DNA of 64,000 nucleotides from Limonium bicolor (taxonomy: Eukaryota > Streptophyta > Magnoliopsida > Caryophyllales > Plumbaginaceae). Location: positions 32,792,337-32,856,336 of the forward strand of contig CM041780.1 in assembly GCA_023374045.1 (NCBI GenBank), given 5' to 3'. The position numbers and the translations under genes are program-made. The notes under the pieces were generated by a model. The model did not search any database, had not been told where the DNA came from, and worked only from the letters and a program-made list of their open reading frames with translations. How positions within the stretch are numbered: position 1 is the first letter of the stretch; each line of letters opens with the position of its first letter. Shown here piece after piece: positions 19,633 through 44,500 of the stretch.

Positions 19633-19637
19633 TTATG
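19633..19637. repeat. left target-site duplication of element C
   Basis: TTATG, repeated exactly at 27984-27988. Confidence 0.92.
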
Positions 19638-20160: not shown

Positions 20161-20739
20161 GGGATAGATTTTTGGATAAAATCAGAACCTGACATGCTCA
20201 AGAACCCTAGAGAGTCAAAAAAGGCAGCCTCCTCTCTCTCTCTCACGTTTTCCAACACCCGGCCACCCAAATCATACCGAAAATCCCCCGAAATCACCAT
20301 CTAAACACGTTTTCCAATCCCCAAAGCACCAATAGTCATCAAAACTCCACAAAACACCACCAAAACGTGAAGAACATCAAGAACAACCAACAACCAGAAG
20401 CTTGGTTCGAAATCCTTTCGGGTCTGCCATCAACGAGGCACTCGACGAATCCCGGCGTGAAGAATCATCTTGAATTCGAAGCTAAAACAGGTTACCACTC
20501 TACTTTTCTAATTCCCCACTACTTTATTAACCCTCTGTCAAATTTAGGGCTCAAACTAACCTTCGTACGCTCCTGTATTGCTATTTGTTTAAGCTTCTGT
20601 CCAATAACTTGTTTACTAAGTTTCGTGTTTAATTCGAACTCAAATTGAAAACTTTCAATCACTAACGTCTTGTACATCTTTCAGGCTACGCACCCATAAA
20701 ATTTGAGCCAAAAACACCTTCGGGAACAGCCCTAACGCC

Positions 20740-21000
20740 GCCGTCCGAGGGCTGTCCGCACCCACGGACGTCATGTCCGGGGTCCCGGACTCACTGTCCG
20801 TAAGCCCGGACGCCCACGGACGGCGGCGGGATTTTAAAATTTTAAAAATTTAGGTTTTCTAATAATGTCCAGGCCCACGGACAGCCTGTCCGTGGCCCCG
20901 GACTTTGCAATTTTCTTTTTTCTGTTTAATTCGACTTTTATTTTCTGTATAGGTTAACTGGGGTCCGTGGTTTCGGATATTAGGTCCGTGGCTACGGACG
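20740..21000. repeat. array of GTCCG/CGGAC inverted repeats in LTR of C
   Basis: At least six GTCCG...CGGAC pairs, such as GTCCGCACCCACGGAC, GTCCGGGGTCCCGGAC and GTCCGTGGCCCCGGAC, concentrated in two blocks in otherwise AT-rich DNA. The same array is in the 3' LTR at about 27290-27550. Confidence 0.8.
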
Positions 21001-21436
21001 GAAACAAAATTTGACCTAATTCTGCCTCCGAAACCCTAGTTTAGGTTTTTTTTTTAATTTCCACTTTAATTTTCTGTCAAAAAATGCTAAAAAACACAAA
21101 AAACGGAAGCTCGCGCACTTAGGTTAAAACGACTCGTAATAAACCGTAAATAAACCAAGTAGAGGATAAACGACCTAGGAAGGGTAATGAAAGTAATTTG
21201 AACCCTACTTAAGTCGAATATCAAGCCCCCGAACCTGGACTCTCCTTTCCTAATTTAATATAGGTCAAAATAAGGTGGCGACTCATAATAGGTTCCAGTG
21301 AGCTAGATTAGGTTTTAATAATTATTATTATATGACATAGTTATTAATCTTAGGTTATAAGTGGACCTAAAACCCGATTAGATCATAATCAACTTTAATC
21401 AACATAGGATAGGGTTTAAAATCGAGGCTCACAGAC

Positions 21437-21454
21437 TGGCGACTCTACTGGGGA
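21437..21454 (+). other. primer binding site of element C
   Basis: TGGCGACTCTACTGGGGA starts three bases after the LTR end. The TGG start fits pairing with a tRNA CCA end. From memory it resembles the Ogre-type site assigned to a tRNA-Arg; I could not confirm which tRNA. Confidence 0.65.
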
Positions 21455-21596
21455 CAAATTTCTTAATATTAACTTGTTTAATTTTAAGAAAGAGGGCTTA
21501 ACTCGAAATTGTTTATTTATGGCTTTATTACTTTGTTTGTTTACTTTTGTGCGCACTTTAATTTTATGCACCTTTGCATCATATGAGAGCGAGGGT

Positions 21597-21935
21597 CCAC
21601 ACAAACCAGTTTCACCCCGGGACCCATCTAGGGTCCCCTGTCAGGGACTCACACCTTTTAGGTGATGTGAATAAGTGAGGGAAAAGAGGGTGTCGTCTAA
21701 CCACACCCCCTTAATACTTGGGCTTTAGCCCCAAGCATTTTCCTGGCAGTACCCTTACCTAGCCCATTGTTTGGTCAGTCAAAGACCCGACCGTAGACGC
21801 ACACCTTCAGGTGATGTGGAAAAAGTGGGGAAGCCCAAAGAGAATAGCGTGCAAGCCCTATTCCTTTCTGGTGACCTGGGCCTGCGCCCCAAGCACCTCT
21901 CCGGATCGATCCATACCTGGTTTGATTTAAACATC
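21597..21935 (+). repeat. two diverged copies of a ~170-bp unit
   Basis: Both copies carry CACACCTT..AGGTGATGTG followed by AAGTG-GGGAA, then CTTGGGC/CTGGGC and GCCCCAAGCA at similar spacing (landmarks at 21648-21735 and 21800-21895). No protein is recognised. Confidence 0.6.
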
Positions 21936-21959
21936 TAGTGAGGACATGTTGAATCTGTG

Positions 21960-22950
21960 TGGGCCTTGTTTGCTTGTGTGATCGGCCCACTACCCAGCCT
22001 AGAAACTGATAGGAATTTCTCCTACATCAACCTAGCCCAACCCGAATTGGCAGCTCTATTTGTTTGCGGCCCAGAGGCCCTGTTTGGTTTAACATGTGAG
22101 TCGTTCGGGTTTCGGCCCAAAAGCCTAGACTTAGGTGATTTCTATCCTGGCCCAATTTGAGTTATCCAATTAGTTCTAGGCCCATAAAAAAATCCACCTG
22201 AAATAACTCACAAGTCCTGAAAATAAAAACTTTTTCGGCTTAGCAACCATCTTCTCTGGCCCGATGAAAGTTAGGCCCATTTGTGATTTAGGAAGCATTC
22301 TGGCTCATGTGCTTTACTTCAGGCCCAAACACATTCTGGCCCAAGGGCTCACTCTAGTCCAGGTAGACTTCTTATCATGACCCTAACCCAAAACCCTAGA
22401 TCTAGGTGTCATCTTTTAGGCCCAACCAAAATCACTCGGCCCAAATTCCAGCTCACATATTGAGCTGTCATTCTGGCCCAAGTACCACACTCAAGACTCA
22501 TTTCATCTAGGCCCATAGACCAATTCATAGTTTTTGCCCATAAGCTTCGCTCTCAATTCAGAATTTCGGCCCATAAAACATTTGAATCCAAGATAGTTTG
22601 CATAATTCATTCATTCCAGTTTCCGGCTTCAAGGCCCAACAAGAACATCAAACGAATCTTATACTTGAAGGCTTATCTCTCGACCCAGTGGCCCATTCAC
22701 GGTCGTTGTGACTTCCTTCAGCTTGTTTGCTCGGTTTCTAGATTAAGGGATTCAGGCCCACATGCCCGTTCTAGTCTAGGAGTCACTATAATCTGTGCAC
22801 TCCACTCTCAGTTTGGAGAAGACTCAGGCCCAGTTACTTCCTACATAACCCATAGGCATTCCTAGTTCAAACATTTTACAGGGCCTACTCGAAGTTTGGA
22901 AGGAAGATAATCACGGTCATCTCAATGGCGTCCCGACGGCCCAAAGCTCG
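21960..22950 (+). repeat. cluster of same-strand GGCCCA words
   Basis: About 18 GGCCCA hexamers lie within 1 kb at irregular spacing, all on the plus strand and usually preceded by a pyrimidine or A. The reverse complement TGGGCC is the plant promoter site II motif, but the strict strand bias argues against simple promoter sites. Confidence 0.7.
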
Positions 22951-24754
22951 AGTCTTCAGTATGTTGGCATCAGACAGCCCAACATCACTATTTTAGAAGT
23001 TTTCTCGATTTGGTAGTTTTCTTTTTCGTTCTTCCAGCTTTTATGGTAGCTAGCTTCCTTTATCATACTAGGTAGTTTTCTTAAGATTTCAATTTTCGAT
23101 GTTGTCTTTCCATTCATGAATTAGAACATAGTTCCATTTTCATAATTTTGTGCATTTAAGAACACCAAAAATAAATAAGTCATCACGTCATTTCACCCAC
23201 ATCCACTTCCTTGAACACATACATCCCATGTGTCTCACCACACCCCCCTCTCCACATGAAACTCATTCTTGCGCAGGGAATATCTCACCACCTTGTCGGC
23301 TTCCACCACTTGTCACCTCTCAATAGAAAGTTTCACCGTACACTGAAAGCATCCCACTACCATGTTTTACTTTCATCACTACATCACTCCACCAAAACAG
23401 CAAAACTTCATCACCACGTACCACCACACATACAGCCACCTCCAACAAATAACTTGGGTATTCAAAAGGCTTGTCAAAAAAACCCCACAATAATACTAGG
23501 GGCAATCTGAGTTAAGGGTCGATAATGTTTATTTCATTGGTTTAAAGAGCGTGAACAAGACTCTGAGTGAACATTTCGCGAGAGTGCCTTGAGCGGTAAA
23601 ACCATGAGTGAAAGAGCATGTCATTTTTACGTGACTCTAGAGAGATCACATTCAAAGGTAAGGTAAACGGCATAACTCCGACCGAAGGAGACACTTTGTA
23701 AATTTACGCTTAAACCTGTGAAAAGTAACAAAGAACGGATACACAACTATTAGGGATGACGAAGCACCTAGGTACAGCACCACACAGCCAAAAGCTTGTG
23801 AACCCTGACATTACACCCTAGGCACCCCCGCTGAGCTTTTCATATACGTTCCCCTTTACAACACTACAAACTCCACAAACAAGCCAGCCAATGATGAATA
23901 ACCGACCTGGTGACCAAAGGAAGCAAGGAGCCCGACTTCCGAACAGCAACTTCACAAGTCCAAAGAAGCAAAACTGCTACCAGCATGACGAAACGATCCG
24001 CAAATGGTCCCAAAGTGACACAGGATCCAAATGAGCTAACATCAAAAATAGCTCTCAAAGTTCAAAGCTGGGAAACACAAGAACCCCGAAGGAAAGGAAA
24101 ATTCAAAGAAAGGCAAACCTGAAAATCCTCGAAGAAATCCAAAATCGGAAAGAAGATAGAAGGTGCAAGGAACAACCCAAAAGTCCCAAGTTCCAAACTC
24201 ACATGCGAAATCATCACGAAGTAGCCAAACGACTTCAAGGCAAAGAAGACAAGTCCGAGAGACGGTGCAAGTTGCAGCTTTGGTCACCCTTATAGCTCCA
24301 CATATCCTAAACATTCCTCCATTGTCCTGTTATCATTCATCACACCCCAAGCCACGATATAAGCTTAAAAGACTTCCGACCTAGTAGTTGTGTATCCAAT
24401 CACGTGAAAGTAACAGGTTGAACACGTAAATCTAACAAATGTCAAATTTAATGGTTGAGAAGTTGTGACCGTAAGTGAGAAACGAGTGCAAACACCAAAC
24501 ACGTCGAGTGTAGGTTAGAAAGCACTACATCAAGATAAACCCGGACCTTGTGAGAATGAGACTTGTTATGCGCCATTAGTCAAAGAAAATACTGGGGGCA
24601 ATTGATCGTTCTGATCGATTGCCAAAAATCCTAAAGAACTCAGATTGCCTTAAGGAAAAATACTGGGGGCAATTGTTGGTCCCAACAATTGCAACAACGA
24701 CACCGTTTGAGGCCCAAAAGCCAGAAACCCAAAGGATTCAAACCCTTCTCATAT

Positions 24755-25590
24755 CACTCAGGCCCGACCTAAGCCCTACCTCCACATTCAAACATCCTCG
24801 GGCCCGACCTAAGCCCTTCCTCCACATTCAAACATCCATAGGCCCGTTCTAAGCCCTTCCTCCCCAACAAATCCCCCCAGGCCCGTCTTAAGCCCTACCT
24901 TCACATTCAAACACCCACAGGCCCGTCTTGAGCGCCACCGTCTCCAGGTTTGACATAAGCCCTAATCCTTCTACATCCATTTAGACCCATCATACATTTT
25001 ACTCACTTTCACTTAGAGCTACCCTATAGGCCCGTCATAAGACCTAGATTCCAGCTTTAGGCTCGTCATAAGACCTAGATCCGTCCTTTAGGCTCGCCAT
25101 AAGACCTAGAACCATTTTTAGGCTCGCCATAAGACCTAGTTGCATTCCCTTAGGCTCGTCATAAGACCTAGATCCGTCCTTTAGGCTCGCCATAAGACCT
25201 AGAACCATTTTTAGGCTCGCCATCAGACCTAGTTGCATTCCCTTAGGCTCGTCATAAGACCTAGATCCGTCCTTTAGGCTCACCATAAGACCTAGAACCA
25301 TTTTTAGGCTCGCCATAAGACCTAGTTGCATTCCCTTAGGCTCGTCATAAGACCTAGATCCGTCCTTTAGGCTCGCCATAGGACCTAGAACCATTTTTAG
25401 GCTCGCCATAAGACCTAGATCCTTCCTTTAGGCTCGTGGTAAGACCTAGTTACATTCCCTTAGGCTCGTAGTAAGACCTAGCGTTATCCTTTAGCTTACC
25501 CGCTCTTATCAAACACATTGCATTCATCACATTCATATAGGCTTGTCATAAGAACTAGTTGCATTATCCAGGCGCATCACAAGACCTGGC
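24755..25590 (+). repeat. minisatellite with higher-order structure in element C
   Basis: The first part (to about 24960) repeats a unit of roughly 39 bp built on AGGCCCG..TAAGCCC. From 25030 a unit of about 31 bp built on AGGCTCGYCATAAGACCTAG takes over. Three subunits ending GATCCGTCCTT, GAACCATTTTT and TTGCATTCCCTT alternate, giving a higher-order unit of about 93 bp repeated about four times. The minus-strand 121-codon ORF across it is a by-product of the repeat length being a multiple of three. Confidence 0.85.
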
Positions 25591-25794
25591 GATAGAAAAG
25601 TTGGCGAGGTGATGGCAATAAATCCTCATTTTGCGATGTCAACTTATTTTCGGGATCAACAAATGGTGGGCGAAGGCAATAAGTCCCCAAGGTTTTTTCC
25701 AGGAGTTATCCCTGCACACCGGCTTGGGGGCGATGGCAATAAGTCCACATTGGGTCCAGCCAGGAGCATTGGCACAGGTTTCGGTCCCCAGAAG

Positions 25795-25892
25795 CATCCG
25801 AGCATCATCAGCATCATCAGCATTATCATTAGCATCATCAGCATCATCAGCATCATCAGCATTATCATCAGCATCATTAGCATCATCAACAT
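25795..25892 (+). repeat. (GCATCATCA)n microsatellite
   Basis: About ten imperfect copies of a 9-bp unit with ATT variants. Overlapping Ser/Ile-rich and Met/Leu-rich ORFs on both strands are artefacts of this repeat. Confidence 0.85.
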
Positions 25893-25909
25893 TTCAGCAT
25901 TCTTGCATT

Positions 25910-26065
25910 TGCATACCGCCCAGTTATCACATTTTAGGTTGTCAACGCCTTGGAATCGCTTGACATTATCTCATTACCACATTTTAGGTCGTCAACGCCT
26001 TAGAATAGCTTGACATTGCTTCATTTCATTTTACTTATAGGTAGTTAGCGCCTTAGAATAGCTCG
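25910..26065 (+). repeat. three copies of a ~60-bp tandem unit
   Basis: Each copy carries ACATTTTAGGT-GTCAACGCCTT or a variant, then GAAT-GCTTGACA. The last copy is more diverged. It lies close upstream of the polypurine tract. Confidence 0.75.
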
Positions 26066-26175
26066 ACACAATTTATCAGCTTTCGATAACATGCAGGGTC
26101 TTGGAAACATTTGAAATTTTGGGGTATCACTCAAGCATCAACTAGCCTTCTCACTTTCAGTACAAAGTCTAGTTG

Positions 26176-26188
26176 ACGGGGGGCAATC
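26176..26188 (+). other. polypurine tract of element C
   Basis: ACGGGGGGCAATC sits directly before the 3' LTR. Similar motifs occur internally at about 23499, 24590 and 24660. Confidence 0.75.
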
Positions 26189-27983
26189 TGTTATACCCAA
26201 AATTTTGACCCCCCTGGTTAGGGTCTACGAGGTCCTGGTGTTGTGAGGGGCATTTTAACCAAGTAATGAGGGATTCCAGCTCGATCGGCGCGTTCCATGG
26301 CATGGGGAGCAGGTTCGTCACTTTCAAGGGCGTTTTGGTATTCTTTAAAGGCTCCTAAGACCTCCTATAAGCTTTCTCTCTCCTCCAAAGGATGCCCAAA
26401 TCAGCTTGAAATGCTTTGACATTTTAACCCATGATAGAGGATGACATTCTAAGCATAATGGCGTTGGAATTTTGAATTTTCGAGTTTCCAATAATTTTCT
26501 AGCAATTTCTGACTGAATCTGACAAGAAATTCAACTTAAAAATATTCCAACATTTAAAAAATCCAATTCCACTTTAGAAAATTCATAATTTCCATCCTTG
26601 ACACGTGGTTAAAATTTCACAGCAAAATTCCTTTGGGAAGTCACTTAACTAAAATATCGAAAAATCTAACTTTTACTAGATTTTCTTTATCTTTAAGAAA
26701 GTCTATTTAAGGGGATAGGTTTTTGGATAAAATCAGAACCTGACATGCTCAAGAACCCTAGAGAGTCAAAAAAGGCAGCCTCCTCTCTCTCTCTCACGTT
26801 TTCCAACACCCGGCCACCCAAATCATACCGAAAATCCCCCGAAATCACCATCTAAACACGTTTTCCAATCCCCAAAGCACCAATAGTCAACAAAACTCAA
26901 CAAAAACACCACCAAAACGTGAAGAACAGCAAGAACAACCAACAACCAGAAGCTTGTTTCGAAATCCTTTCGGGTCTGCCATCAACGAGGCACTCGACGA
27001 ATCCCGGCGTGTAGAATCATCTTGAATTCGAAGGTAAAACAGGTTACCACTCTACTTTTCTAACTCCCCACGACTTTATTAACCCTCTGTCAAATTTTGG
27101 GCTCAAACTAACCTTCGTACGCTCCTGTATTGCTATTTGTTTAAGCTTCTGTCCAATAACTTGTTTACTAAGTTTCGTGTTTAATTCGAACTTAAATTGA
27201 AAGCTTTCAATCACTAACGTCTTGTACATCTTTCAGGCTACGCACCCATAAAATTTGAGCCAAAAACACCTTCGGGAACAGCCCTAACGCCGCCGACGAG
27301 GGCTGTCCGCACCCACGGACGTCATGTCCGGGGTCCCGGACTCACTGTCCGTAAGCCCGGACGCCCACGGACGACGGCGGGATTTCAAAATTTTAAAAAT
27401 TTAGGTTTTCTAATAATGTCCGGGCCCACGGACAGCCTGTCCGTGGCCCCGGACTTTGCAATTTTCTGTTTTCTGTTTAATTCGACTTTTATTTTCTGTA
27501 TAGGTTAACTGGGGTCCGTGGTTTCGGACATTAGGTCCGTGGCTACGGACGGAAACAAAATTTGACCTAATTCTGCCTCCGAAACCCTAGTTTAGGTTTT
27601 TTTTAATTTCCACTTTAATTTTCTATCAAAAAATGCTAAAAAACACAAAAAAACGGAAGCTCGCGCACTTAGGTTAAAACGACTCGTAATAAGCCGTAAA
27701 TAAACCAAGTAGAGGAAAAACGACCTAGGAAGGGTAATGAAAGTAATTTGAACCCTACTTAAGTCGAATATCAAGCCCCCGAACCCGGACTCTCCTTTCC
27801 TAATTTAATCTAGGTCAAAATTAGGTGGCGACTCATAATAGGTTCCAGTGAGCTAGCTTAGGTTTTAATAATTATTGTTATATGACATAGTTATTAATCT
27901 TAGGTTATAAGTGGACCTAAAGCCCGATTAGATCCTAATCAACTTTAATCAACATAGGATAGGGTTTAAAATCGAGGCTCACA
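26189..27983 (+). repeat. 3' LTR of element C
   Basis: Matches 19638-21433 and ends GGCTCACA, followed by the TTATG duplication. Its array of GTCCG/CGGAC repeats lies at about 27290-27550. Confidence 0.9.
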
Positions 27984-27988
27984 TTATG
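27984..27988. repeat. right target-site duplication of element C
   Basis: TTATG, identical to 19633-19637. The uninterrupted site is visible near 38150 in the 3' LTR of B. Confidence 0.92.
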
Positions 27989-28895
27989 TCATTAACCCTA
28001 GGGATATAATGAAGGTAACCAAGAATAAGCTTGGGCATTAAAACATGTCATATAATCATGTAAAATGCTTAGTAAAATTTGAAGTTAAGTAAGTTAATTA
28101 ATCGACGTTATTAATCATGTATAGGAGTGACCTACGGTGGAAACCAGTCGAAGCAATGACGAAGGTATGGTTTTCTTGCAGTCTTTTGCCTACCGGTTTA
28201 CACCGGCTTGTGTGTTGTTTGTTTTTCTGTGTGCGTATGACCTTGTAAGACTTAAGTCATGTAATGAGTTTACAGTTGTTTATATTTTGGTGTTGTTAAG
28301 ATGTCACTCATTTCCCTTGTGTGTGTCTAACAAAACTTAACCACTTGTTGTGATTTGTTTATTGAGTTCATTGTTGAACATCTAACAAGTGCTAACCGGG
28401 GAGTGAGGAGTCCGGTAGTTCCGGCCACGCGTGTGAGTATGGGAGTCGATGTCATAACCGGTTCGATTCTCTTTGTATGTTATGGTTGTTTTCCATTTTG
28501 GTTTTCAACCTTCTCTTTAGCTTATCCAAGGCTATTTTACTGACTCACGTCGGGCCACAAGGGCATACTATGTTTTATTCGGTGTGCTTGGATAACTATA
28601 TCCGACGCACCTTTGTGTTAAGTTATTCGTCTAATTTAACAGGACGGTAACGAGTTATGTAACGAGCTGAGCATGAGTTTGGCAACATTCTCTAGGCTCT
28701 CCGTGTGATCTAATTGTGTCGGTTCGTTTCCTAAAAGGATTCGTTCTTGTATGTTATGTGTGATGTTGTTATTCAATACTCTTGCTATGATATATATGTT
28801 GTATGTTTAAAATGAATGCCATGTTATCATGACAAATAGTTGCGCGTATCCCGGTAGCCGATGGGCTGCGCGTTAACCATACCAGCCAAGGGTTG

Positions 28896-28930
28896 CTGAC
28901 CCCCTCGGGGGCTCCATATTTATATTGCAG
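28896..28930 (+). promoter_or_regulatory. hairpin followed by a splice-acceptor-like site near the LTR end
   Basis: GACCCCCTCGGGGGCT can form a short GC stem and is followed by TATTTATATTGCAG. The same pairing of a C5/G5 hairpin with a pyrimidine-rich ...CAG recurs in the 3' LTR (about 39065-39097) and in E (45748-45780 and near 55390). It could be the acceptor of a leader intron; no transcript evidence is available. Confidence 0.4.
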
Positions 28931-29344
28931 GATGAGGATCGAGGAAGTGGAATGGCTGTAGATTCTAGGTCGTAGAAATACTTTTGGTTATTTTTGGATG
29001 TTGATCCCGGGATGCGCCTGTGCTCCCGTGGCGTTATATTTTGGTACCGTTAATTTTGACAGTAGCGGTTGTTGACAGTTATAGTGGTAGATTACAGTTT
29101 ACAGCTTATAGTGACGTTGTAATGTAAATACTCGATATGGTTGGTAATGTATATATGTATGGATGTTAGTACCTAATGCTCGGGAGTCTGATCATCAGAC
29201 CGGTACACTTGTATTTATTCTGCCTTGTTAACCATGTGGGTGGTTAATGGCGTTATAGCACCGAACCGTTTAGTTATTGTTTAGTTGTTATTTCCGCTGC
29301 GATTTCAATTATTGTTAAGTGCGTAGTAGGGGTGTTACAAAAAG

Positions 29345-29372
29345 TGGTATCAGAGCGAAGTATCGCTCTGAT
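29345..29372 (+). other. primer binding site of B (initiator tRNA-Met) within a hairpin
   Basis: TGGTATCAGAGC at 29345-29356 is complementary to the 3' end of plant initiator tRNA-Met. Bases 29349-29358 and 29363-29372 form a perfect 10-bp stem with an AGTA loop that includes eight bases of the primer site. Confidence 0.9.
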
Positions 29373-29558: not shown

Positions 29559-30949
29559 ATGTCAGGTAGACCGAGAGGTAGAGGCCGCGGACGCGGTACT
29601 GGTGATACGGGTGACCAGGGCGATAACGCAAGGGCATAGGTTATGGCTGAGGCAGTAGCAGCCGCCGTAGCCCAGATGGTACCCCAGTTAGTAGCTGCGA
29701 CGCAGCATCAGCAAGGCGGTGCGGGACAACAAGAACCACAACCGCAACCACAGCCGCGCGAGACCAACTGGGTCAAGGCGTTGGCGGATTTGAGACCACC
29801 GTCATTTAGTGGGGAGACCGACCCTGGTAAGTTGGAGGCGTACATCTCCGAGATGGAGACCGCCTACGAGACATTGAATGTGCCCGAGGAGGTCAAGGCC
29901 CGTCTTGCTGCTTACTACCTGAAGGGATCATCTCAGAGTTGGTGGAAGTTGGTAAGGGAGGGCAGAGTTGCTGATCCTACCTTTCAGTGGAGGGAGTACA
30001 TGGCTCTGCTGCGAGCCAAGTACTACCCGATACACGTGCAAGAGGCCAAGCGCCTAGAGCTCGACAATATGAGGCAAGGCGATAAGATGACGGTAGATGA
30101 GTATTATTCTGCTTTCATCGGACTTATCCACCTGCTGCCGGATCTGGGTTACTCAGACCGGATTTTAGTGAACCGTTTCTACAACGGATTGAGCTACCGC
30201 CTACGCTACGGTATGAAGCCAAGCGGATATACTACTTTACAGGTAATGACCTACAGTGTGATGTGAATAAGTATGTGCAGTGTGTTAATGTAATTGTGAG
30301 TTTGATTTACGGGGCATAACTAACACCCTAAATGTAGGAGTGCTATCATGCCGCTGCTATAGTAGAGATCACCGTCTGTCTGAGGGACGAGGAGAATGCG
30401 CTCAAGCGCAAGGCCACGAGCGAGGGTCTAAGCACGCAAGGGCACAGGGGAGGAAAGAAGAAAAAGCCATACCCCCAGTCCCAGAAAGGACAGCAATAGG
30501 GTGGCAAAGGCCAAGCCCAGACCACCACTGCTGAGGAACCGCTACAACTCACCTATGCATATGAGGCTAAGCCCTTATGCCCTTACCCGCCCAAGGCTGG
30601 CGCGGGCTCTGGACCGGAGCGCCACAAATACTGTAAGTGGTGTAACGGAGACCACCCCGGCAAGGACTGCAAGGGCAATGATGTGCAGTGCAAACACTGC
30701 AAGAAGATGGGGGATCGTGACTACGAGTTCTTCCAGAACCCAAATAGTAGGAACTACAAGCCCAAGGGGCAGTGGAAGGGTAAGGCCGCCGGGACTACCG
30801 ATGGCCCAAAGAAGGCTAATCAGCCACTCCCAGATCAGAGGTACACTGATTCCCAGAAGGGGAAGGGGACGGGATCCGGCATGGCCACCGTGAATGTGGT
30901 GGACCGGTCTGAGGCACCAGGGCCCTCTTCTAGACCAGGTACCGCCTAA
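29559..30949 (+). pseudogene. gag: gag of element B (two stops, one probable intron)
   Basis: The capsid-like structural protein of the retrotransposon. It starts at ATG 29559 with a basic MSGRPRGRGRGRG leader. A retrotransposon gag domain follows (about 29770-30240), with SFSGETDP, YLKGSSQSWW and EYMALLRAKYYP. An Arg/Lys-rich linker leads to zinc knuckles: CKWCNGDHPGKDC is complete (CX2CX3HX4C), whereas the second, starting CKHCKKMG, lacks the usual His and last Cys (D and F instead). TAG stops lie at 29637 and 30497, each where Gln is expected. A 95-nt intron-like segment (30243-30337) interrupts the frame. The ORF ends at TAA 30947 instead of running into protease as in related elements, because the AlkB segment lies in between. 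Confidence 0.88.
30243..30337 (+). other. probable spliceosomal intron in gag
   Basis: The gag frame breaks after CAG at 30240-30242 and resumes at GAG 30338. The 95 nt between begin GTAATG and end TGTAG, with a good branch-point sequence (TAACTAAC) about 20 nt before the end. Removing it joins ...YTTLQ to ECYHAAA in phase without any other change. A random insertion is the alternative, but no target duplication is seen. Confirmation needs spliced RNA reads. Confidence 0.65.
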
Positions 30950-31149
30950 ACCGTTGAATGAAATAAATGATTGCATACCGCATTTCATGCATGTGTGTTA
31001 GTGAGTCTAAATGTACAACCATGTAAGTAAAAAGTTAAAGTATAGTGTGGAAACACCTAAATTAGGTAATCGGAAAAATCTAGGAACCTTCAATATCTGT
31101 TATCCAATCCCGCCCATACCGGACAACCATCAGCATCACCAAATTCCCA
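30950..31149 (+). other. segment between gag and AlkB
   Basis: No gag or pol similarity. A CAG|GTACCG donor-like site just upstream (30936-30944) could start an intron. Frame 3 (31011-31250) encodes a stretch including LGTFNICYPIPP, which may be a remnant of the N-terminal part of the captured AlkB gene, displaced by one frame from the catalytic ORF. Confidence 0.4.
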
Positions 31150-31812
31150 ATGGAGCAATGTCAGGTTATCCAGCAAGGTATGATACTTTTAAATGGATAC
31201 CTGACACCGAAAGCACAAATCCACATCATCAGGCGATGCAACAGACTTAGAGCAGCACCTGGAGGTTTCTACACACCCGAATACTTGAGCGGATCGAGGA
31301 TGAAATTGAAGATGATGTGCATGGGTAAGGACTGGAATCCTTACACCAAGACATACCAAGACGTGCAAGCTGAAGATGGAGCAACGATACCGATGATACC
31401 TGAGGAGTTCCTTACGGTCGTTAACCACGTCGTGGGAATTGCTCAGCAAGTTGAATCGGATTCAATACCAAGTGTTAAAGCAGATTTATGTATTGTGAAA
31501 TTCTACCAGAAAGGTGGACGATTAGGGTTACACCAAGATAAGGACGAGTCACCCGAGTCTCTAAGTAAGGGAGTACCCGTGGTGTCTTGGTCCATTGTTG
31601 ATACTGCAGTGTTTATATATGGCGAGCAGAAGCGTGCCGATCTCGCAAAGAAGTTAGTAATGAAGTTAGGTGATGTGTTAATCATGGGTGGGCAGTCAAG
31701 GATGCTATATCATGGTATCAAGAAGATCAAACTAAATACCGCACCTTCGATAGTGATCAATGCCACACATATGAAACCGGGACATTTGAATTTGACCTTC
31801 AGGCAGTTTTGA
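31150..31812 (+). CDS. AlkB-type 2-oxoglutarate/Fe(II) dioxygenase carried by element B
   Basis: An unbroken 220-codon ORF (ATG 31150, TGA 31810). AlkB enzymes oxidise methyl groups off nucleic-acid bases using Fe(II), 2-oxoglutarate and O2. Visible features: GMILLNGYL near residue 20, LKMMCMGKDWNP near 55-66 (a block I recall from plant ALKBH1-like proteins), GGRLGLHQDKDES with the HxD iron ligands H128 and D130, GDVLIMGGQSR followed by YHG with distal ligand H188, and NLTFRQF at the C-terminus with R218 for 2-oxoglutarate. The first Arg of the usual RxNxTFR motif is His (H212). The length covers the whole catalytic domain; the N-terminal extension of host homologues is missing or lies out of frame upstream. 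It is on the same strand as gag and pol and lies between them, which indicates capture of a host cDNA. The substrate (RNA m6A, m1A/m3C or DNA 6mA) cannot be read from sequence. Confidence 0.9.
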   Translation: MEQCQVIQQGMILLNGYLTPKAQIHIIRRCNRLRAAPGGFYTPEYLSGSRMKLKMMCMGKDWNPYTKTYQDVQAEDGATIPMIPEEFLTVVNHVVGIAQQVESDSIPSVKADLCIVKFYQKGGRLGLHQDKDESPESLSKGVPVVSWSIVDTAVFIYGEQKRADLAKKLVMKLGDVLIMGGQSRMLYHGIKKIKLNTAPSIVINATHMKPGHLNLTFRQF

Positions 31813-31929
31813 AGCCTTGTGTAACCATGTAATCGATGAAGCCAATTGTATGTTAAGGATGTTATGTATATGTTAGTTATGTAGACAGGGTGAACCAACT
31901 TACAGTGTAAAGGGTGTGTTAATGAATAA
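31813..31929 (+). other. segment between AlkB and pol
   Basis: AT-rich sequence with several stop codons and no protein similarity. It may be 3' untranslated sequence carried in with the AlkB gene, or intron-like sequence. Confidence 0.4.
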
Positions 31930-34900
31930 AGAGATGTTGTTTTGGAAGTATATCAACTGTGTTGTTACCGTATACTTATGAAGTTTGCCAATGAATTAGG
32001 CTGTGCACTCGGAACGGGAGGTATACTGGGCGTTTGTAATAAGGCAGAAGCCGGCAAGAGCGGCACAATCCTCACCAGTACCTTTCCAGTCAATGGCATG
32101 GACGCTTCGATCTTGTTCTACTCCGGAGCCTCACATACATTTATCTCGCTATCTTTTACGGAGAGGCTGGGGTTAGACGGTGAAGAGATGCCAGACTTTC
32201 TAGTCACTCTCCCGTCGAAAGAGCGGATCAGGTGTACCCGCTACCACCGAGATGTTGTTGTACGAATTAGAGAAAAAGAGTTTCCGATCGACTTGATAGA
32301 GTTCAAGGGACTCGGTTTTGATGTGATTATCGCGATGAACTGGTTGGAGCGGTACAAGGGCAGAATCCTGTGTGCCGAGCATCGTCTGCTTCTTCGGAGT
32401 CCGTCTAGGGTTACTATATCTTACCGCTAGAGGCCCAGAGAGCCTTCGACTCAGATCATCACCGCCATGGCCATGTATTGTGAATTACGACGAGGGAATG
32501 ATGTATACCTCTGCTATGTCCAGGACATAGAGAGGGACCTAGAGTTTAGCCCACATGTTCCGGTAGTGTCAGAGTTTCCTGATGAATTTCCAAAGGAACT
32601 GTCGGGCATGCCGCCAGCACGGGAAGTAGAGTTTGAGATTGATTTGGTTCCGGGCACCGGACCAATATCGAAGGCGCCCTATCGTATGGCTCCAGCTGAG
32701 ATGACAGAGCTTAAGGAGCAGCTGAGAGACCTACTCGACAAGGGATTTATCCGCCCTAGTGTTTCACCATGGGGAGCGCCGGTCCTCTTCGTGAAGAAGA
32801 AGGACGGTAGTCTCCACCTTTGTATTGATTACCGAGAGCTGAATGCAGTTACGGTGAAGAACAGTTATCCTTTACCACGCATCGATGACTTATTTGATCA
32901 GTTGAAAGGAGCATCAGTATTCTCCAAGATAGATTTACGATCCGGTTACCATCAGATTGCTATCCGGGAAAGTGATATTGAGAAAATCGCATTCAGAACC
33001 AGATATGGACATTATGAGTTTACAGTTATGCCGTTTGGTTTATCCAATGCACCAGCCAAGTTCATGGACTTAATGAACCGCTTGTTTCAAGATCAGTTGG
33101 ACAAGTCAGTGGTAGTTTTCATCGACGATATACTTGTGTACTCAAAATTGAGAGGTGAGCATGAAAGCCACCTGAGAAATGTGTTACAAACATTGAGAAG
33201 GAACCAGTTGTATGCGAAATTTTCTAAGTGTGAGTTTTGGTTGAACCAAGTATCTTTTCTTGGTCATGTGATTTCTGAAGCCGGGATCGCTATTGATCCG
33301 GCAAAGATAGATGTTGTGTGCACCTGGCCTAGGCCGAAGATAGTTACCGACATTCAGAGCTTCCTCGGTCTGGCAGGATATTATAAGAGGTTTGTGAAGG
33401 ACTTCTCCAGTGTCTTGAAGCCGATGACTTCCTTAATAAAGAAGGATGCACCATTCGAGTGGATAGTTGACTATGAGAGTTCTTTTCAGAGTCTCAAGGA
33501 TGCTCTAACATCTGCACCAGTCCTGACTTTACCAGACGGTCAAGATGGTTTTGAGGTCTATTGTGACGCATCAGGCAGAGGTATGGGATGTGTATTGATG
33601 CAGCACGGGAAGCTCGTGGCTTACGCCTCCCGGCAACTGAAGAAGCATGAAGAGAACTACCCTACCCACGACTTAGAATTGGGTGCCATTGTCTTCGCAT
33701 TGAAGATATGGCGACATCATTTGTATGGGGTAAGCGTGATAATCTATTCCGACCACAAGAGTTTAAAGTACTTGTTCACTCAGAAGGAGTTGAACATGAG
33801 ACAAAGAAGGTGGGTCGAGTTCTTAAACGACTACGACATCAATCTACAGTATAAAGAGGGTAAAGCAAATGTGGTAGCTGATGTATTGAGTCACCGAGCA
33901 CACTCTCTCCATTCACTAGTCTCTCATACTAGCTTGGTTGAAGAGGTGCAGAGTGCTCAGATGACGGATCAGTATACGTTAGAAATTAGGTAGAAACTTA
34001 TTGATGGCACATTCGAGGGTCAGAAGTACGACTTCCGACTCCACGATGATGACCTGATTAGGCTTAATGGCCGACTGTGTATTCCGAGGAGTAGCGCTGA
34101 GCTGAAGGAGCGCATACTGAGTGAATCCCATTGTTCTACGACTTCGATTCACCCCGGAGCTTCAAAGATGTACAAGGGTATGAAACGTTATTTTTGGTGG
34201 ACGGGCATGAAAAAGGATGTGAACGATTATGTGTTGAGGTGTCTCACTTGTCAAAAGGTCAAGTTTGAGCACCGACGGCCTGGTGGTATGGTACAGTCAA
34301 TGCCAGTGCCTGAGTGGAAGTTCCAAGACATTTCTATGGACTTCGTAGTAGGGCTTCCGCCTACAAGGGGAGGTCTGAATATGATTTGGGTTATTGTTGA
34401 CCAACTGACCAAGGTGGCTAGATTCATACCGATGAAGGAAACCTAGAAAGTGGCAAATCTTGCAGAGCTCTTTGACAGGGAGATTGTAAGACATCATGGG
34501 GTACCAAAACGATTGTGTCTGACAGGGATACCAGATTCCTCTCGAGGTACTGGAAATCAACACGGGAAGTGCTTGGTACCGAGCTGAAGCTAAGTACGGC
34601 GTTCCACCGGCAGACCGATGGTCAGAGTGAGCGCACCATCCTGACGTTAGAGGATATGTTACGTGCATGTGCACTTGACTTTCAGACCAGCTGGATTGAT
34701 AAGTTACATCAGATCGAGTTTAGCTACAACAACAGTTACCATGCTTCGATCAAGATGTCTCCCTTCCAGGCATTATACGATAGACCATGCCGCACACCAT
34801 TATGCTGGGATGAGTTGAGTGAGACGGTCATTATAGGACCAGAGAATCTGGAGCAAGTACAGTCAGAAGTACGCCAGATCCGGGCTAACATGAAGGCAGC

Positions 34901-35378
34901 TCAGGATAGGCAGAAATCATACGCCGATGTGCGCAGATGTGACCTGGAGTTCACCGTGGGCGATCAGGTATTTCTTAGAGTATCCCCCATGAAGGGAGTG
35001 TTTCATTTTGGCCAGAAAGGCAAGTTGAGCCCGAAATATGTGGGGCCTTATGTTGTGACGGAGCGGATAGGCCCGGTAGCTTACAGGCTAGATTTACCTG
35101 CTAAGTTGGGCAAGGTACACGATGTATTTCATGTGTCCTAGTTGAAGAAATATATGTCTCATCCGTCTCATGTACTTCAGCCTGAGAGGCTAACTTTAGA
35201 GCCGACCATGCGATCAGTGGAGACTCCCGTACGGATTCTGGACACTAAGACTCGAGACACTCGCCATAAGTATGTGAGACTGGTGAAGGTTCTCTAGTCT
35301 AACCAAGACGTTGAGGAGGCCACTTGGGAGATGGAAGATAAGATGAAGGCGAAGTACCCGTCATTGTTTACTTCTTAG
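31930..35378 (+). pseudogene. pol: pol of element B: protease, RT, RNase H, integrase, chromodomain-like tail
   Basis: Replication polyprotein of a Tekay/Del-type chromovirus. Protease similarity begins near 32080 (TFPVNG); the catalytic motif reads YSGASH, with Tyr (32119-32121) in place of the active-site Asp. The reverse transcriptase follows (32600-33500, [11 protein letters not shown] at about 33115). RNase H keeps YCDASG, DLELG, YSDHKS and VVAD (33550-33890). Integrase has the His/Cys zinc region (HCSTTSIHPG...CLTCQ), MDFV, SDRD and SERT acidic residues (34130-34660). The C-terminal LVKVL...EEATWEME region (35278-35335) is chromodomain-like, ending at TAG 35376. TAG stops lie at 32428, 33991, 34444, 35139 and 35295, and a single-base loss in an A run near 34507 shifts the frame. 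This copy is dead. Confidence 0.92.
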
Positions 35379-35685: not shown

Positions 35686-38600
35686 TGAAATACCCCAAAC
35701 CCTTATATGTTATTTAAACATTAAAATACTGTATATTAAGACTAAAAAGAGTCTAAGAAACATTAGTAAACAATTTAAACCATAGAAAACACAATTAAAT
35801 ACCTTAAGGTCAATTTGGGCGAAAATGTGCTCTAAGCTTGGGATAGTTTTGGCTAAGACGTAATGAGCTTACCAAAACCTTATTTATATATTAATGAACA
35901 TATTAAACCAATTACCAAAGAAAACCAAGCTTGAACACAAGTTAAAACATAAAATGTGCTTTAAGGAGTCTTAAAGCACATTTTTGAAAAATTGTCTTGT
36001 AAATGGGTTTTGAATGGCTAAATGTCATCATTACTCTTTAATTAACATGTGTACTACTTAGTATCACATTAGGATGTCTAAATAAATGGGAAATCAAAAA
36101 TTTCATAAAGATGTGCCTTGTTTTGGTGAATAGTAACTAAAATAAGCTAGTTTATAACATAAGTCAAATAAGTAATTTAATTGGTCAACTAAGACCAAAA
36201 TACCCCTAAACACATTAAGGGGGCCGGTTTTCTTGATGACTCACCACACTTAAACAAAAAAATAAGCTAAGTAAAGTAATAAAGTAGAAAGTACTATTTG
36301 CTTTACTACTTAAATATCTACACTATCAAACTTATCTTCATTCTCTCATTTCTCTTCATTTCCCATGTCTTCTACCTTCCTTCTTTCTCTCTTTCATGGT
36401 TGCTACAGCACACCACTATTCACCACCTTCAATCTCTTGTAATTCCTAGCTCCCTTTACCAAATCAAAAACCAAGACCACCATTCTCTTTGTCTTGCCAA
36501 GCTCTTCAACTTCATCCTTTCAAAACTCCAAGAGCTACATTTCGGTGCCAAGATAAGTCTCCATGAGAGGAGCTTGAGCTCATCTTTTTACATATCATTG
36601 TTCTCCTTTGCTTCAAGGTAAGGAAACTTAAAGAAAAACAACATTTCCTCCATGATTTTATGTTCACCGAAAATCTCCATTAATGGTGTCTTTACCTTGC
36701 TTTGTTCTAGCTTCATTCCAATCCTTCAAGGACTAGGTGGAGTCCTCTCTTTCTACCTATCCAAACTCTCTTTCATTTCCAAGGTAAAACAATCATCCTA
36801 ATGTTCTAAGACAATATATGTAACTAGGGTTTATAATGAGATGAAGCATAAAGCTTGAATACTCATTACATTGTTTGTATATTGATTAGAAGTTGACAAG
36901 CAAATAAAAGCCTTGTCGATTTAGTCAAGGAAACAAGAAAGAAGTTTGTGAGGAAAAGAGGTAAATGTGTTAACCTAATGTAATTTAAAGCCTTAGGAGA
37001 AATGAGCTTATATTGCTTATTAAAACTACTTAAGGGACCAATGGTGAATGACCTAGTAAATGTTCTCAAGGAGACTATTAAAGGGCATATGAGTTGTTGT
37101 ATGTATTTGCAGGTCAAAGGCAAATATATTGTGGGAAATTCAGTGTTTATGATTTCTGCATTTTAAGGGCCTAAGAGCCATGTTATTTAAGGGCCTAAGT
37201 GCCAAGCAATTTAAATAATGCACTATATTGTTATGTAGTGTAGTTTGATGAAGTTTTGTGTATAAGAATGCTCTTGATGAATCTAAGTGTTCTTGAATGT
37301 TTAATGGTGAAAACTTTGAGTTTTGGTGTAACAAGATGCTAGGAGAACCCATGTCGAAATTTAGATAATGTATAAGATGTTTTAGGTGTTTAAAATGAGT
37401 TTGGTGAGTTCGGAAGTGTTTAGAGTGATTAAGTGTTCTATTAGTGAAAGAAACATGCATTAAGGAATTCTAAGATGTAATAAGGACTTAGGCAATGTTT
37501 TAGAGGATTTAGAATGCAAGTGAGTGTTTTGGGATACTTCAAGATCATGGTGAGATTGTGTTTAGGACTTGTACAATGTTGATGAACAAGGAAGAAGTAA
37601 TGTATTGCATGAAGAAGCTATAAACTTGTGGAGATATTTAAGGAGTTGGTTAGGAAGTAAAGATGCTTGGGAGAAAAAATAGGTAAGTGTTAGGAAATTT
37701 GGTAAGAAATGAGTAAGTGTATAAGGAGATAGAAAATGAGTTTTATGGATGTTGTATGAGAGTATCAGTGTGCCAAATTGTGTTAGAACACATTAGAAGG
37801 TTTAAGGAAAAGTTTGGAGAAGATTTAACAATTTTTGGGCATGTTCTGGTGTCGTCCGACGCAGGGGACCGACTCAAGGTTGGGTCGGACGGCCTCTGTA
37901 AGACACCAGTAAGTGGTTCTGGAACGGTCTGACCCAGGGGACTTGGGTCGGACATGGGTCGGTCAGGTGAGTTGTAAAAGACGGAAAAATTGCTGGAATG
38001 GTCAGACCTAGAGGACTTAGGTCGGACATGGGTCGGACGAAGTGGGGTTTTCAAATCCAAGAATTTCTGGAAGGGTCCGACCCAGTTGGTTGGGTCGGAC
38101 GGTGGGTCGGTCTGACCCAAAACATAAAAAAAACAGAAAGGAATATGACTTATGTAATTAACCATAGGGGTATAATGAAGGTAACCAAGGATAAGCTTGG
38201 GCATTAAAACATGTCATATAATCATGTAAAATGCTTAGTAAAATTTGAAGTTAAGTAAGTTAATTAACCGACGTTATTAATCATGTATAGGAGTGACCTA
38301 CGGTGGAAACTAGTCGAAGCAAGGACCAAGGTATGGTTTTCTTGCAGTCTGTTGCCTACCGGTTTACACCGGCTTGTGTGTTGTTTGTTTTTCTGTGTGC
38401 TTATGACCTTGTATGACTTAAGTCATGTAACGAGTTTACAGTTGTTTATATTATGGTGTTGTTAAGATGTGACTCATTTCCCTTGTGTGTGTCTAACAAG
38501 ACTTAACCACTTGTTGTGATTTGTTTATTGAGTTCATTGTTGAACATCTAACAAGTGCTAACCGGGGAGTGAGGAGTCCGGTAGTTCCGACCACGCGTGT

Positions 38601-39505
38601 GAGTATGGGAGTCGATGTCATAACCGGTTCGATTCCCTTTGTATGTTATGGTTGTTTTCCATTTTGGTTTTCAACCTTCCCTTTAGCTTATCCAAGGATA
38701 TTTTACTGACTCACGTCGGGCCACAGGGGCATACTATGTTTTGTTCGGTGTGCTTGGATCACTATATCCGACGCACCTTTGTGTTAAGTTATTCGTCTAA
38801 TTTAACAGGACAGTAACGAGTTATGTAACGAGCTTAGCATGAGTTTGGCAACATTCTCTAGGCTCTCCGTGTGATCTAATTGTGTCGGTTCGTTTCCTAA
38901 AAGGATTCGTTCTTGTATGTTATGTGTGATGTTGTTATGCAATACTCTTGCTATGATATATATGTTGTATGTTTAAAATGAATGCCATGTTATCATGACA
39001 AATAGTTGCGCGTATCCCGGTAGCCGATGGGCTGCGCGTTAACCATACCAGCCAAGGGTTGCTGACCCCCTCGGGGGCTCCATATTTATATTGCAGGATG
39101 AGGATCGAGGAAGCGGAATGGCTGTAGATTCTAGGTCGTAGAAATACTTTTGGTTATTTTTGGATGTTGAGCCCGGGATGCGCCTGTGCTCCCGTGGCGT
39201 TATATTTTGGTACCGTTAATGTTAACAGTAGCGGTTGTGGACTGTTAAAGTGGCAGATTACAGTTTACAGCTTACAGTGACATTGTAATGTAAATACTCG
39301 GTATGGTTGGTAATGTATATATGTATGGATGTTAGTACCTAATGCTCAGGAGTCTGGTCATCAGACCGGTACACTTGTATTTATTCTGCCTTGTTAACCA
39401 TGTGGGTGGTTAATGGCGTTGTAGCACCGAACCGTTTAGTTATTGTTTAGTTGTTATTTCCGCTGCGATTTTAATTATTGTTAAGTGCGTAGTAGGGGTG
39501 TTACA
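35686..39505 (+). repeat. 3' LTR of element B
   Basis: An uninterrupted 3,820-bp LTR from TGAAATACCCC to GTGTTACA. It shows the empty target site of element C near 38150 and carries the GTCCGACCCA array at 37850-38118. No protein is recognised; the ORFs are shared with the 5' LTR. Confidence 0.93.
37850..38118. repeat. inverted-repeat array, 3' LTR copy of B
   Basis: Counterpart of 19330-19605. Several arms have picked up mutations (for example TCAGACCTA for TCCGACCCA), some on one arm only. Confidence 0.85.
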
Positions 39506-39510
39506 CTCAC
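39506..39510. repeat. right target-site duplication of element B
   Basis: CTCAC, identical to 17167-17171. Confidence 0.9.
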
Positions 39511-41545: not shown

Positions 41546-44500
41546 TGAAATACCCCAAACCTAAGTATTCTAAGTAAACATCAATTTATGATGTAGTAAG
41601 GCTAAAATATGTCTTAGAAAGATTGGTAGACAATTTAAACCAACGAAAACACAAGAAAACGCCTTAAGGGCAATTTGGCCAAAAACGTGCTCTAAGCTTT
41701 GAGTGACTTTGATTAGCACCCAAATACCATTATAAGACTTTAGAAATATGCTAATGGACATTTTAAATCAATTACCAAAGACAACCAAGCTCAAAAACAA
41801 GCTTAAACACAAAATGTGCTTTAAGACTCCTTAAAGCACCTTTTTGAGAAATTGTCTTAGAAATGGGTTTTGAGTGGCTAAATGCCCATGATTACATCTT
41901 AATCAACATGTGTGCTAATTAGTATCACATTAGGAAGTCTAAATCAATGGAAAACCAAAAATTTCACAAATATGTGCACTAATTTGTGAATAGTAACAAA
42001 ATAGTGCCTAGTTTAGTCTTTAGTCAACTAAGTCAAATTAAATGGTCAAACAAGACCATAAATATCTCCAACTATAAGAGGGGGCCAGTTTTCTTATGTG
42101 GGGAGTCACCACATGACTAAGCAATTAAAGGAAAAGAAGAGGAAAAAAAAGTAAAGGTACTATTTGCTTTATAAAACAAATATCTCCTTATAAGCTACCA
42201 TTCTTCTTCTCTCTCTTCATTTCTCTTCTTCCCATCGGTTTCTCCTGCATCCTCTCTTCCCCATTCACGTAAGAGCAGCCTCCATTGTTGCCTCACCTTC
42301 ATTTGTCCATAACTTACTCATTTTAGCTCCAAATCAAAAACTAAACACATATTATTCTTAGTTAGCTCAAGCTGTAGCTTTCTATCTTTTCAAATCCTTC
42401 AAAGCTCCATTTCGGTGCCAAGTGAAAAATCCATTGAGGGAGGAAAGTCAAGTTTGAAGAGCTCTTTTGGTTCTCCATTCATCCAAGGTAATGAAAGTGG
42501 AAGAAAAATCAACTTCCCTTCATTTTTCTACATGTCCGAAAATTCAATCTTGTGAGGGTTTTGTTTCACACCTTGAAATAGCTTGTTTTGATCACCAAGG
42601 ACTAGTGGAGGTCCCTCTTGATTCATGCCCAAGTCTACTTTGAGACTTCAAAGGTAATCATCCACTTTTATACCTTAAAACACATTTTTAACCTAGGTTT
42701 TCATTCCTTAAGGTTAGTGTGTTGTTTAGTACTCATTGGAGTCATTGAATATTGATTAGAACATTGGCAAGGGAAATTAAAATGTTGGCCGAGATTTCCA
42801 AGGGAAGAAGCCTAAGGAGAAACTTGAGAGAAACTTGAGAAAAACAAGGTAAATTGCTCACCTAATGGTGGTTTAAGTTTTAAGGGATAAGTTTTAGGTG
42901 AGTACTAATGTAGCTTAAAGCTTACATTAGGTAATGGGTTATATTACCTACGAAAAAGAATTTAAACAAGTTTATGAACTTATGATTAAGGAGCCAATGG
43001 AAATGAGTTAGTAAGATAAGCTTAAGGTGAATTAAGAGAACACTTATATTGCTATGGGAGCATTGTTGTGTGTATTTGCAGGTTGAAAGCTTTTATATGT
43101 GGGAAATTCAGTGTTTAAGTTTAAGTCATTTAAGGGCCTAAGAGCCATGTCATTTAAGAGCCTTAGTGCTATGCAATTTAAGATTTTTGCATTATATCGA
43201 GTTTAATGTGAATGAGTTGATTTGGGTGGGAAAATATGATGAGAAAGAACTTGATGTGTGTGAGATGGTTGAATGAGGAAAATAATGCTTATGTGCATGA
43301 TAATATACTAGAGGAGCTATGGCGAAATTAGAGTAGGAAACAAGTGTTTAAGTGATGGTTATGATTTAATATGACCTAGGGTTTACTAGGAGACATTAAA
43401 AAGGAATTTGAGTGGAAAAGAGTTAATTAAGGAGTTCTTAAGGTTTAGTATGGCCTAGAGATGTCTAGGAGGAATTAGAGGATTGGTGGGTGTATTAAAC
43501 ACACCAAAATCATTGTATGAGGAATGTTAAGACTTGAGGAAATAATGTATAATGTTTTGAGGTGATTTAGGTATGAACTTGAGAATATAACAATGAGAGG
43601 GTATGATCATGAGAATGGTGAGTGAATTGGGAAAAGGAGATGGAAATGTCTAAGGAGGGTGTAGCATGGACAAGGTAAATGAAGAACAATGTTATGGTGT
43701 TAAGTAGATGAGAGGAAATGTATAGGTAAGTTCATGAGTTTATGTTGATGAGTAACAAATGGAAAAGAGAGGAACTTGTGCATGGAGATACAAGATGACT
43801 TGAGGAAGTTTTGGAAAATGAACTGAAGATGGAAAAATGATGTTTATGAAGTGGTCAATCTGTCAAGGAGGGAACACTTGGGTTGGTTGAAGTTTTGGTG
43901 AGGCTACAAGTTGGAAATGTAAGGAATTATGTGATAAGTGTTAGGAATTTCTTGTAAGGATTGAGGAAATGGTTAAGGAGGTTTTATAGGATGTTCTAAG
44001 GTGAGTTTAAGCGCCTATATGGTATTAAGACATAATGGGACACTTGTGGAAGAGTATGGAATTCAAAGAACAATTTAAGAGAAAAATCTGTAATGGACCG
44101 ACCCAGGGTCCGACCAAGTTTTGGGTCGGTCGGACCATGTTAAGCCAGCCAGAATATCTCTGGACTGAACCGACCCAGAGGGTTTTGGGTCGGTCGGCTT
44201 AGCTTTGGGTCGGTCGGGCAAAAAATTCAACGTAGAAAGTGGACTCTGGGATGGAGCGACCCAGAAGGTTTGGGTCGGTCGGTTTAGCTTTGGGTCGGAT
44301 GGGTGATTTTCAAAAGACGGAAAAATTTATGTGGTGGACCGACCCATAAGGTTGGGTCGGTCGTGGGTCGGTCAGAGGGAATTGTTCGAACCAGAAAATT
44401 ACTGGAACGGACCGACCCAGGGGTTGGGTCGGTCGGTGGGTCGGTCGACCCTTAAGACTTTAAAAAAAAGAAAGAAACCCTAAGAGAGTTTAGTGGTATT

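Follow-up and report, generated by a model that had tools for sequence, protein, structure and literature searches.

An ALKBH1-type domain between gag and pol of an abundant Ty3/gypsy family in Limonium bicolor, probably expressed as a spliced Gag-AlkB fusion

Structure of the element in the window

The window is the whole 64-kb (64,000-nucleotide) stretch of Limonium bicolor DNA analysed here. It contains an LTR retrotransposon on the plus strand, in which an AlkB open reading frame (ORF) lies between gag and pol. The features of this element are as follows, with a slash marking each putative splice boundary.

17167-17171, no strand: left target-site duplication CTCAC, exact
17172-19638, plus: first part of the 5' LTR, 96.3% identical to the 3' LTR
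19639-27983: nested element interrupting the 5' LTR
27984-29339, plus: second part of the 5' LTR, 97.1% identical to the 3' LTR
29345-29356, plus: primer-binding site (PBS) TGGTATCAGAGC
29559-30242, plus: gag exon 1 (PF03732), with one in-frame TAG in the window copy
30243-30337, plus: putative gag intron 1, GT...AG, 95 bp
30338-30938, plus: gag exon 2, ending at the putative donor CCAG/GTACC, with one in-frame TAG in the window copy
30939-31083, plus: putative intron from the gag donor to the AlkB acceptor (CTAG/GAACC)
31084-31812, plus: putative AlkB exon, ALKBH1-type, with its own stop; the part before 31150 is frameshifted in the window copy
31150-31812, plus: AlkB ORF, 220 codons, intact
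31998-31999, plus: AG of the putative alternative pol acceptor (AATTAG/GC), whose use would remove AlkB within intron 30939-31999 and yield Gag-Pol
32000-35378, plus: pol exon with protease, RT, RNase H, integrase and a weak chromodomain; reading frame broken by several in-frame stops and by a frameshift
35686-39505, plus: 3' LTR, 3,820 bp
39506-39510, no strand: right target-site duplication CTCAC, exact

A sequence-only reading of this DNA had placed AlkB in sense orientation between the gag and pol genes of an element with clear LTRs and an exact CTCAC duplication. The gag, protease, RT, RNase H and integrase matches agree with this placement, the LTRs show 120 differences over 3819 aligned sites, and CTCAC is present on both sides (17167-17171 and 39506-39510). 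The LTR divergence (JC 0.032) corresponds to an age of 1.2-2.3 Myr under assumed rates of 1.3e-8 and 7e-9. Because gag and pol are interrupted by in-frame stops and by one or more frameshifts, the window element is dead. Upstream of AlkB, gag matched PF03732 and PF19259, and a Cys-His knuckle was recognised by eye in gag exon 2, without a Pfam match. The PBS TGGTATCAGAGC is presumably of the tRNA-Met type. The chromodomain scored 14.1 bits in the window copy, under the Pfam cut-off of 25.1, and 26.7 bits in sister copy L045. The element may belong to the Tekay/Del lineage.

Other repeats were also observed in the window. The element nested in the 5' LTR is itself LTR-like, with repeats at 19635-21433 and 26186-27983 that are 97% identical, and consecutive 93-bp direct repeats at 25022-25511 give rise to a repetitive minus-strand ORF. 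A third element (1216-14524, minus strand) has LTR-like repeats of 97% identity, a minus-strand PBS at 10352 and a 107-bp unit doubled in each repeat. At 41546-58504 (plus strand), a stretch of about 6.5 kb is repeated at 96% identity, with PBS at 46085 and 55696, apparently in the order LTR-internal-LTR-internal; its LTR and the LTR of the AlkB element are about 75% alike. When this region was searched by tblastn with the gag, protease, RT and AlkB of the AlkB element, no match was found, and it looks like a non-autonomous element in tandem. Across the other elements of the 64-kb window, tblastn found no AlkB beyond the ORF described above.

Identity and active site of the AlkB domain

The 220-codon ORF described by the sequence-only reading proved intact at 31150-31812. 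It matched PF13532 (AlkB) over the entire profile (1-194 of 194) with 138 bits against a cut-off of 31.2 (E 5.9e-40). The NCBIfam AlkB models all scored under their own cut-offs, the best reaching 96.7 of 267 bits. The best solved structure was 5xeg (214 bits), which we take to be rice ALKBH1, and the plant matches carry names such as ALKBH1C or 1D-like, indicating an ALKBH1-type domain.

The iron-binding triad HxD...H is kept in the window protein as H128, D130 and H188, the positions given in the earlier reading. At positions 117 and 212, the window protein has K and H, and all 37 other copies that we read have N and R. By analogy with E. coli AlkB, both positions presumably bind 2-oxoglutarate; the alignment in the available text of PMC9289625 points to the same role. 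The AlkB active-site residues N, Y, H, D, H, R, N and R were identical in 37/37 other copies, including three that have a stop at another point. The triad, the RxxxxxR motif and the Asn thus occur together in every sister copy and incompletely in the window copy, whose enzyme is probably catalytically impaired. With an intact ORF that is probably impaired and a family that is well kept, the window alone would mislead in both directions.

Copy number and gene context

We searched the Limonium bicolor genome (2.92 Gb; 2,924,550,425 bases in 2,686 contigs) with three protein queries, which gave at least 150, at least 150 and at least 107 AlkB places, the first set including the window copy. Stops were carried by 17, 13 and 29 of the 150, 150 and 107 places listed, in lists ranked by score in which intact copies are over-represented. 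Three subfamilies were named W (window-like), P and C. Because the score range of each set does not overlap with the fetched copies of the others, we take at least 407 places as distinct. These numbers rule out a single chance insertion of AlkB, and the earlier concern that the ORF might be one copy equal to one host gene was not borne out. The W gag donor sequence occurred at 5,449 genome places with at most 2 mismatches, a figure that counts gag ends and not AlkB. Ten fetched places out of at least 107 from the plant-protein query were all element copies, and no host ALKBH1 gene was found among these ten. A search of IMG/VR with the AlkB protein gave no relative.

We read 38 loci with their flanks, chosen as the top AlkB scorers (8 W including the window, 20 P and 10 C). 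On the same strand as AlkB, gag lay upstream at 37/38 loci, protease downstream at 38/38 and RT at 36/38. The sole locus without a gag protein match was L052 of subfamily C, in which the gag end still aligns in DNA with other C copies. Among ten W downstream stretches, an LTR of the window type was at or near the expected place in all ten, two of them cut at their start. In ten P stretches, it was at or near the expected place in seven, displaced together with RT in two and not found in one.

We observed a second gag-AlkB-pol unit (L030:3072-7058) about 8-9 kb downstream of AlkB in copy L003. Together with several pairs of splice-junction places (described below) lying 9-10 kb apart, this unit suggests tandem LTR-internal arrays.

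Purifying selection on AlkB

We calculated dN/dS as Nei-Gojobori medians over pairs of loci. The loci had been chosen by AlkB score, which biases AlkB dN downward within families, and the within-family values were 0.086 for W (28 pairs), 0.112 for P (190 pairs) and 0.144 for C (45 pairs). The comparison of W with P, which is less affected by this bias, gave 0.099 (160 pairs) at a dS of 1.69, near saturation; W-C was saturated and C-P nearly so. In the wrong frames (+1 and +2), the values were 0.95-7.7. The window copy against the other W copies gave 0.19.

Protease gave 0.27, 0.12 and 0.13 in W, P and C, and 0.13 between W and P. The corresponding RT values within W, P and C were 0.19, 0.06 and 0.16. 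In gag, the N-terminal part gave 0.08-0.12 and the C-terminal part 0.22-0.40. Divergence of the gag-AlkB intron, found by pattern in 8 W, 15/20 P and 10 C copies, was 0.117, 0.091 and 0.202 in W, P and C, compared with AlkB dN of 0.016, 0.032 and 0.071. The results showed that AlkB is under strong purifying constraint across sister copies, with a dN/dS of about 0.1 and not near 1, the value that the sequence-only reading had named as evidence against its proposal.

Start codon and putative splice sites

The earlier reading began the ORF at the ATG at 31150, and this start did not hold. The residue at that position is M in 7/8 W copies, T in 20/20 P copies and E or V in 10/10 C copies. A conserved coding segment starts upstream of it, at about 31084, and is in the AlkB frame in 31/38 copies with a dN/dS of 0.15-0.25. 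This segment (FNICYP, FDICFP and similar) corresponds to FDIC, a motif of plant ALKBH1 proteins. In the window copy, it is no longer in frame.

The gag end carries a putative donor, CCAG/GTAC in W and P and G/GTAAGC in C, with a stop at once or soon after. A TAG/G acceptor precedes AlkB at a codon position shared by W, P and C, and a second acceptor, AG/G, opens pol (12/20 P copies shown for each). Both junctions complete a glycine codon in phase, as seen in one row per subfamily for each junction. Simple patterns, whose misses may be pattern failures, found the donor at 37, the AlkB acceptor at 34 and the pol acceptor at 36 of the 38 loci, and the gag-AlkB phase was kept at 27/33 loci having both sites. 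These sites and the conserved upstream segment suggest that AlkB is probably expressed as a spliced Gag-AlkB fusion and not from the ATG at 31150.

Gag intron 1 was present in the aligned W (8) and P (11/20) copies, and L059 of subfamily C is contiguous there. The database gag protein P0121 ends just past the intron 1 point. The copies form a series in which a spliceosomal-type intron is gained or lost within the gag of a retrotransposon. We considered L059, which has a 644-aa open frame, as a spliced copy and rejected this idea, as it is collinear with unspliced copies.

Putative splice junctions in genomic DNA

If the RNAs were spliced and now and then reverse-transcribed, exact junctions would be expected in DNA. 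We found the Gag-AlkB junction at 18 genome places with at most 2 mismatches (6 P and 12 W, of which 1 and 7 were without mismatch), and the Gag-Pol junction at 26 (12 P and 14 W; 8 and 4 without mismatch). Some of these places are separated by 9-10 kb and may go back to a single event. Reversed-pattern controls for the P and W junctions gave 0 places. Two decoys, joining the same donors to other AG/G sites with 3-4 bp of microhomology, also gave 0 and 0 places. The C Gag-AlkB junction was found at 0 genome places with up to 3 mismatches.

The junction lacking gag intron 1 occurred at 533 genome places. At two Gag-Pol places (C3:2655892 and C3:11925509), intron 1 is also gone, 596 and 602 bases upstream, as expected of fully spliced RNA. 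Within the region covered by the 100 exact intron-1 matches listed (contigs C1, C2 and C3 to 247 Mb), intron 1 was also missing at 2/20 junction places, comprising 2/10 Gag-Pol and 0/10 Gag-AlkB; most junction places are therefore unlike fully spliced RNA. In addition, the donor and both acceptors share AGG, so a deletion could mimic splicing. Taken together, alternative splicing to Gag-AlkB and Gag-Pol is well supported but not proven.

Origin and relatives of the element AlkB

Database searches returned five proteins at 62-68% identity, P0001, P0002, P0003 and P0006 to the window protein and P0122 to a C copy. The gag search gave one match, P0121. As P0121 (gag) and P0001 (AlkB) each lie on a contig of 26,621 bp, gag and AlkB are probably together there.

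We built a tree from 50 hand-chosen rows: 11 element copies, the five database relatives, 29 others (26 of them plant proteins) and 5 taken as bacterial. The element copies and the five database relatives (16 rows) formed one clade with support 95/92. This clade adjoined the 29 others, including plant ALKBH1 (96/94), and the 5 presumed bacterial rows fell outside (100/100). P0122 grouped with C (98/96), and P0001 and P0002 with W and P (96/90), which suggests one old capture before the split of these lineages. In AU tests, nesting of the element clade within plant rows was not rejected, either with Saponaria (p 0.285) or with the group around the 1D-like proteins (p 0.335). The element AlkB and plant ALKBH1 proteins have FDIC, HxD...H and RxxxxxR in common. 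The element AlkB differs in lacking the long N-terminus of the host proteins and a short segment ahead of the active site, in forming its own clade, and in lying behind gag. The earlier proposal of capture from a host ALKBH1-like gene, with retention as an accessory enzyme, is supported by the sister position of plant ALKBH1, the many copies and the dN/dS of about 0.1.

Discussion

We propose, with a probability of about 0.7, that this Ty3/gypsy chromodomain family carries an ALKBH1 domain as an alternative last exon and so produces a particle-borne Gag-AlkB enzyme. The family would have acquired the catalytic domain from a plant ALKBH1 gene, as an alternative last exon inside the gag-pol intron. 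Unspliced RNA would then give Gag, joining of the gag donor to the pol acceptor would give Gag-Pol, and joining of the same donor to the AlkB acceptor would give Gag-AlkB. We infer that Gag-AlkB would join the other Gag products in virus-like particles, with methylated bases of the packaged RNA, or of the single-stranded cDNA from reverse transcription, as its target. The benefit to the element would be that copying is unblocked, or that the copy is left unmarked.

AlkB proteins also repair m1A and m3C. According to the available text of PMC10469495, rice ALKBH1 acts on 6mA in single-stranded, unpaired or R-loop DNA, and an excerpt of PMC12786077 describes how Arabidopsis ALKBH9B, an RNA demethylase, releases ONSEN RNA held in stress granules. 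Within the Gag particle, where Gag-AlkB would also be located, reverse transcription yields single-stranded DNA and RNA:DNA hybrids, so particle-borne repair or demethylation appears favoured. The sequence-only reading suggested that the element may have stripped methyl marks from its own RNA or DNA. For an ALKBH1-type enzyme, single-stranded DNA (6mA), m1A or m3C would be at least as likely targets as m6A in mRNA.

Alternatively, the site of action could be the nucleus and not the particle: the enzyme would target R-loops or chromatin (6mA, histone marks) and keep element loci expressed, as rice ALKBH1 might. The best solved match, 5xeg, presumably rice ALKBH1, fits this idea. So does the removal of 6mA from single-stranded or R-loop DNA by rice ALKBH1 in the available part of PMC10469495. 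We nevertheless regard nuclear action as unlikely, as a Gag fusion would speak for particles and we saw no sign of nuclear import here.

A second alternative is that translation begins at an internal start and yields AlkB as an accessory protein of its own, which demethylates element RNA in the cytoplasm, the role proposed for the orchid element. The window ORF of 220 codons does begin with ATG, with M in 7/8 W copies, and the orchid protein described in PMC9289625 (available text) is a separate ORF product with m6A activity in vitro. This alternative is improbable, given the T in every P copy and E or V in every C copy at the ATG position, the constrained in-frame segment upstream, the agreement of donor and acceptor phases in three subfamilies and the fused genomic junctions in two of them.

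It is about equally doubtful that the junctions did not come from spliced RNA. Related elements usually have one gag-pol ORF, and the Gag-Pol junctions could represent an older intron-free lineage from before insertion of the intron and AlkB, with the Gag-AlkB junctions being microhomology deletions. The AGG common to donor and acceptors, the loss of intron 1 at just 2/20 checkable places among the matches listed and the 0 places for the C Gag-AlkB junction are all consistent with this view. Against it, each junction type is found in both W and P, whose flanks differ; two decoys with microhomology of 3-4 bp gave 0, and 533 places have the junction without intron 1. A functionless passenger capture, carried along by an abundant element, agrees with the broken window copy and its two lost cofactor positions but is very improbable, and we rejected neutral carriage in view of an AlkB dN/dS of 0.09-0.14, like that of protease and RT, active-site residues kept in 37/37 other copies and database relatives of both the W-P and C lineages.

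The claim of the sequence-only reading that an accessory demethylase in a Tekay-type element would be a new module was too strong. Among the open-licence PMC papers listed, AlkB in an LTR retrotransposon was found in PMC9289625 and its citers alone. The available text of that paper describes the Phalaenopsis family Gypsy_Pa_2799, a family of many copies with a 2-ODD ORF that is an m6A demethylase in vitro, and it reports 2-ODD in two Phalaenopsis genomes alone among 121 angiosperm genomes screened. As far as that text goes, both families are plant Ty3/gypsy elements of many copies with a fixed AlkB and conserved Fe and 2OG residues. In Gypsy_Pa_2799, the domain is ALKBH5-type and lies C-terminally in ORF2, a separate ORF of 565 aa, in a 25.5-kb Ogre/Tat-like element with a PBS antisense to tRNA-Arg and Gag-Pol in one ORF (PMC9289625). 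In contrast, the Limonium element has an ALKBH1-type domain, the PBS TGGTATCAGAGC, a chromodomain, and AlkB between gag and pol as an apparently Gag-fused exon. It therefore falls outside the Phalaenopsis family on AlkB type, PBS and gag-pol layout, with AlkB and stops between gag and pol.

The viral AlkB domain sits inside the replicase. Alphaflexiviridae, Betaflexiviridae and Closteroviridae, as cited in the available text of PMC9289625, are also RNA-based plant parasites that encode AlkB; they differ from the Limonium element in being RNA viruses whose AlkB is not fused to Gag. In Ogre and EVADE retrotransposons, introns and alternative splicing set which products arise, and the excerpted account in PMC12786077 does not mention a captured enzyme as an alternative exon. 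What is new here is apparently a variant of AlkB capture, the alternative-exon Gag fusion being the most novel part. The fuller proposal, that splice choice attaches either Pol or a demethylase to Gag for particle-borne repair or counter-defence against methyl or alkyl marks on packaged RNA and nascent single-stranded cDNA, by a capture independent of that in the orchid and present in more than one host genome, is tentative, and we hold it at somewhat below even odds.

These findings provide evidence for a second capture of AlkB by plant LTR retrotransposons, in which both the AlkB subfamily and the kind of element differ from the first. It therefore looks as if methyl or alkyl marks on the nucleic acid of retroelements are contested again and again. 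If true, the choice between Gag-AlkB and Gag-Pol splicing would be an unusual expression strategy and would point to the life-cycle stage at which the enzyme acts. The family is very large, with 5,449 places for the gag donor of one subfamily, indicating that carriage of AlkB was no bar to its expansion in Limonium bicolor and may have promoted it.
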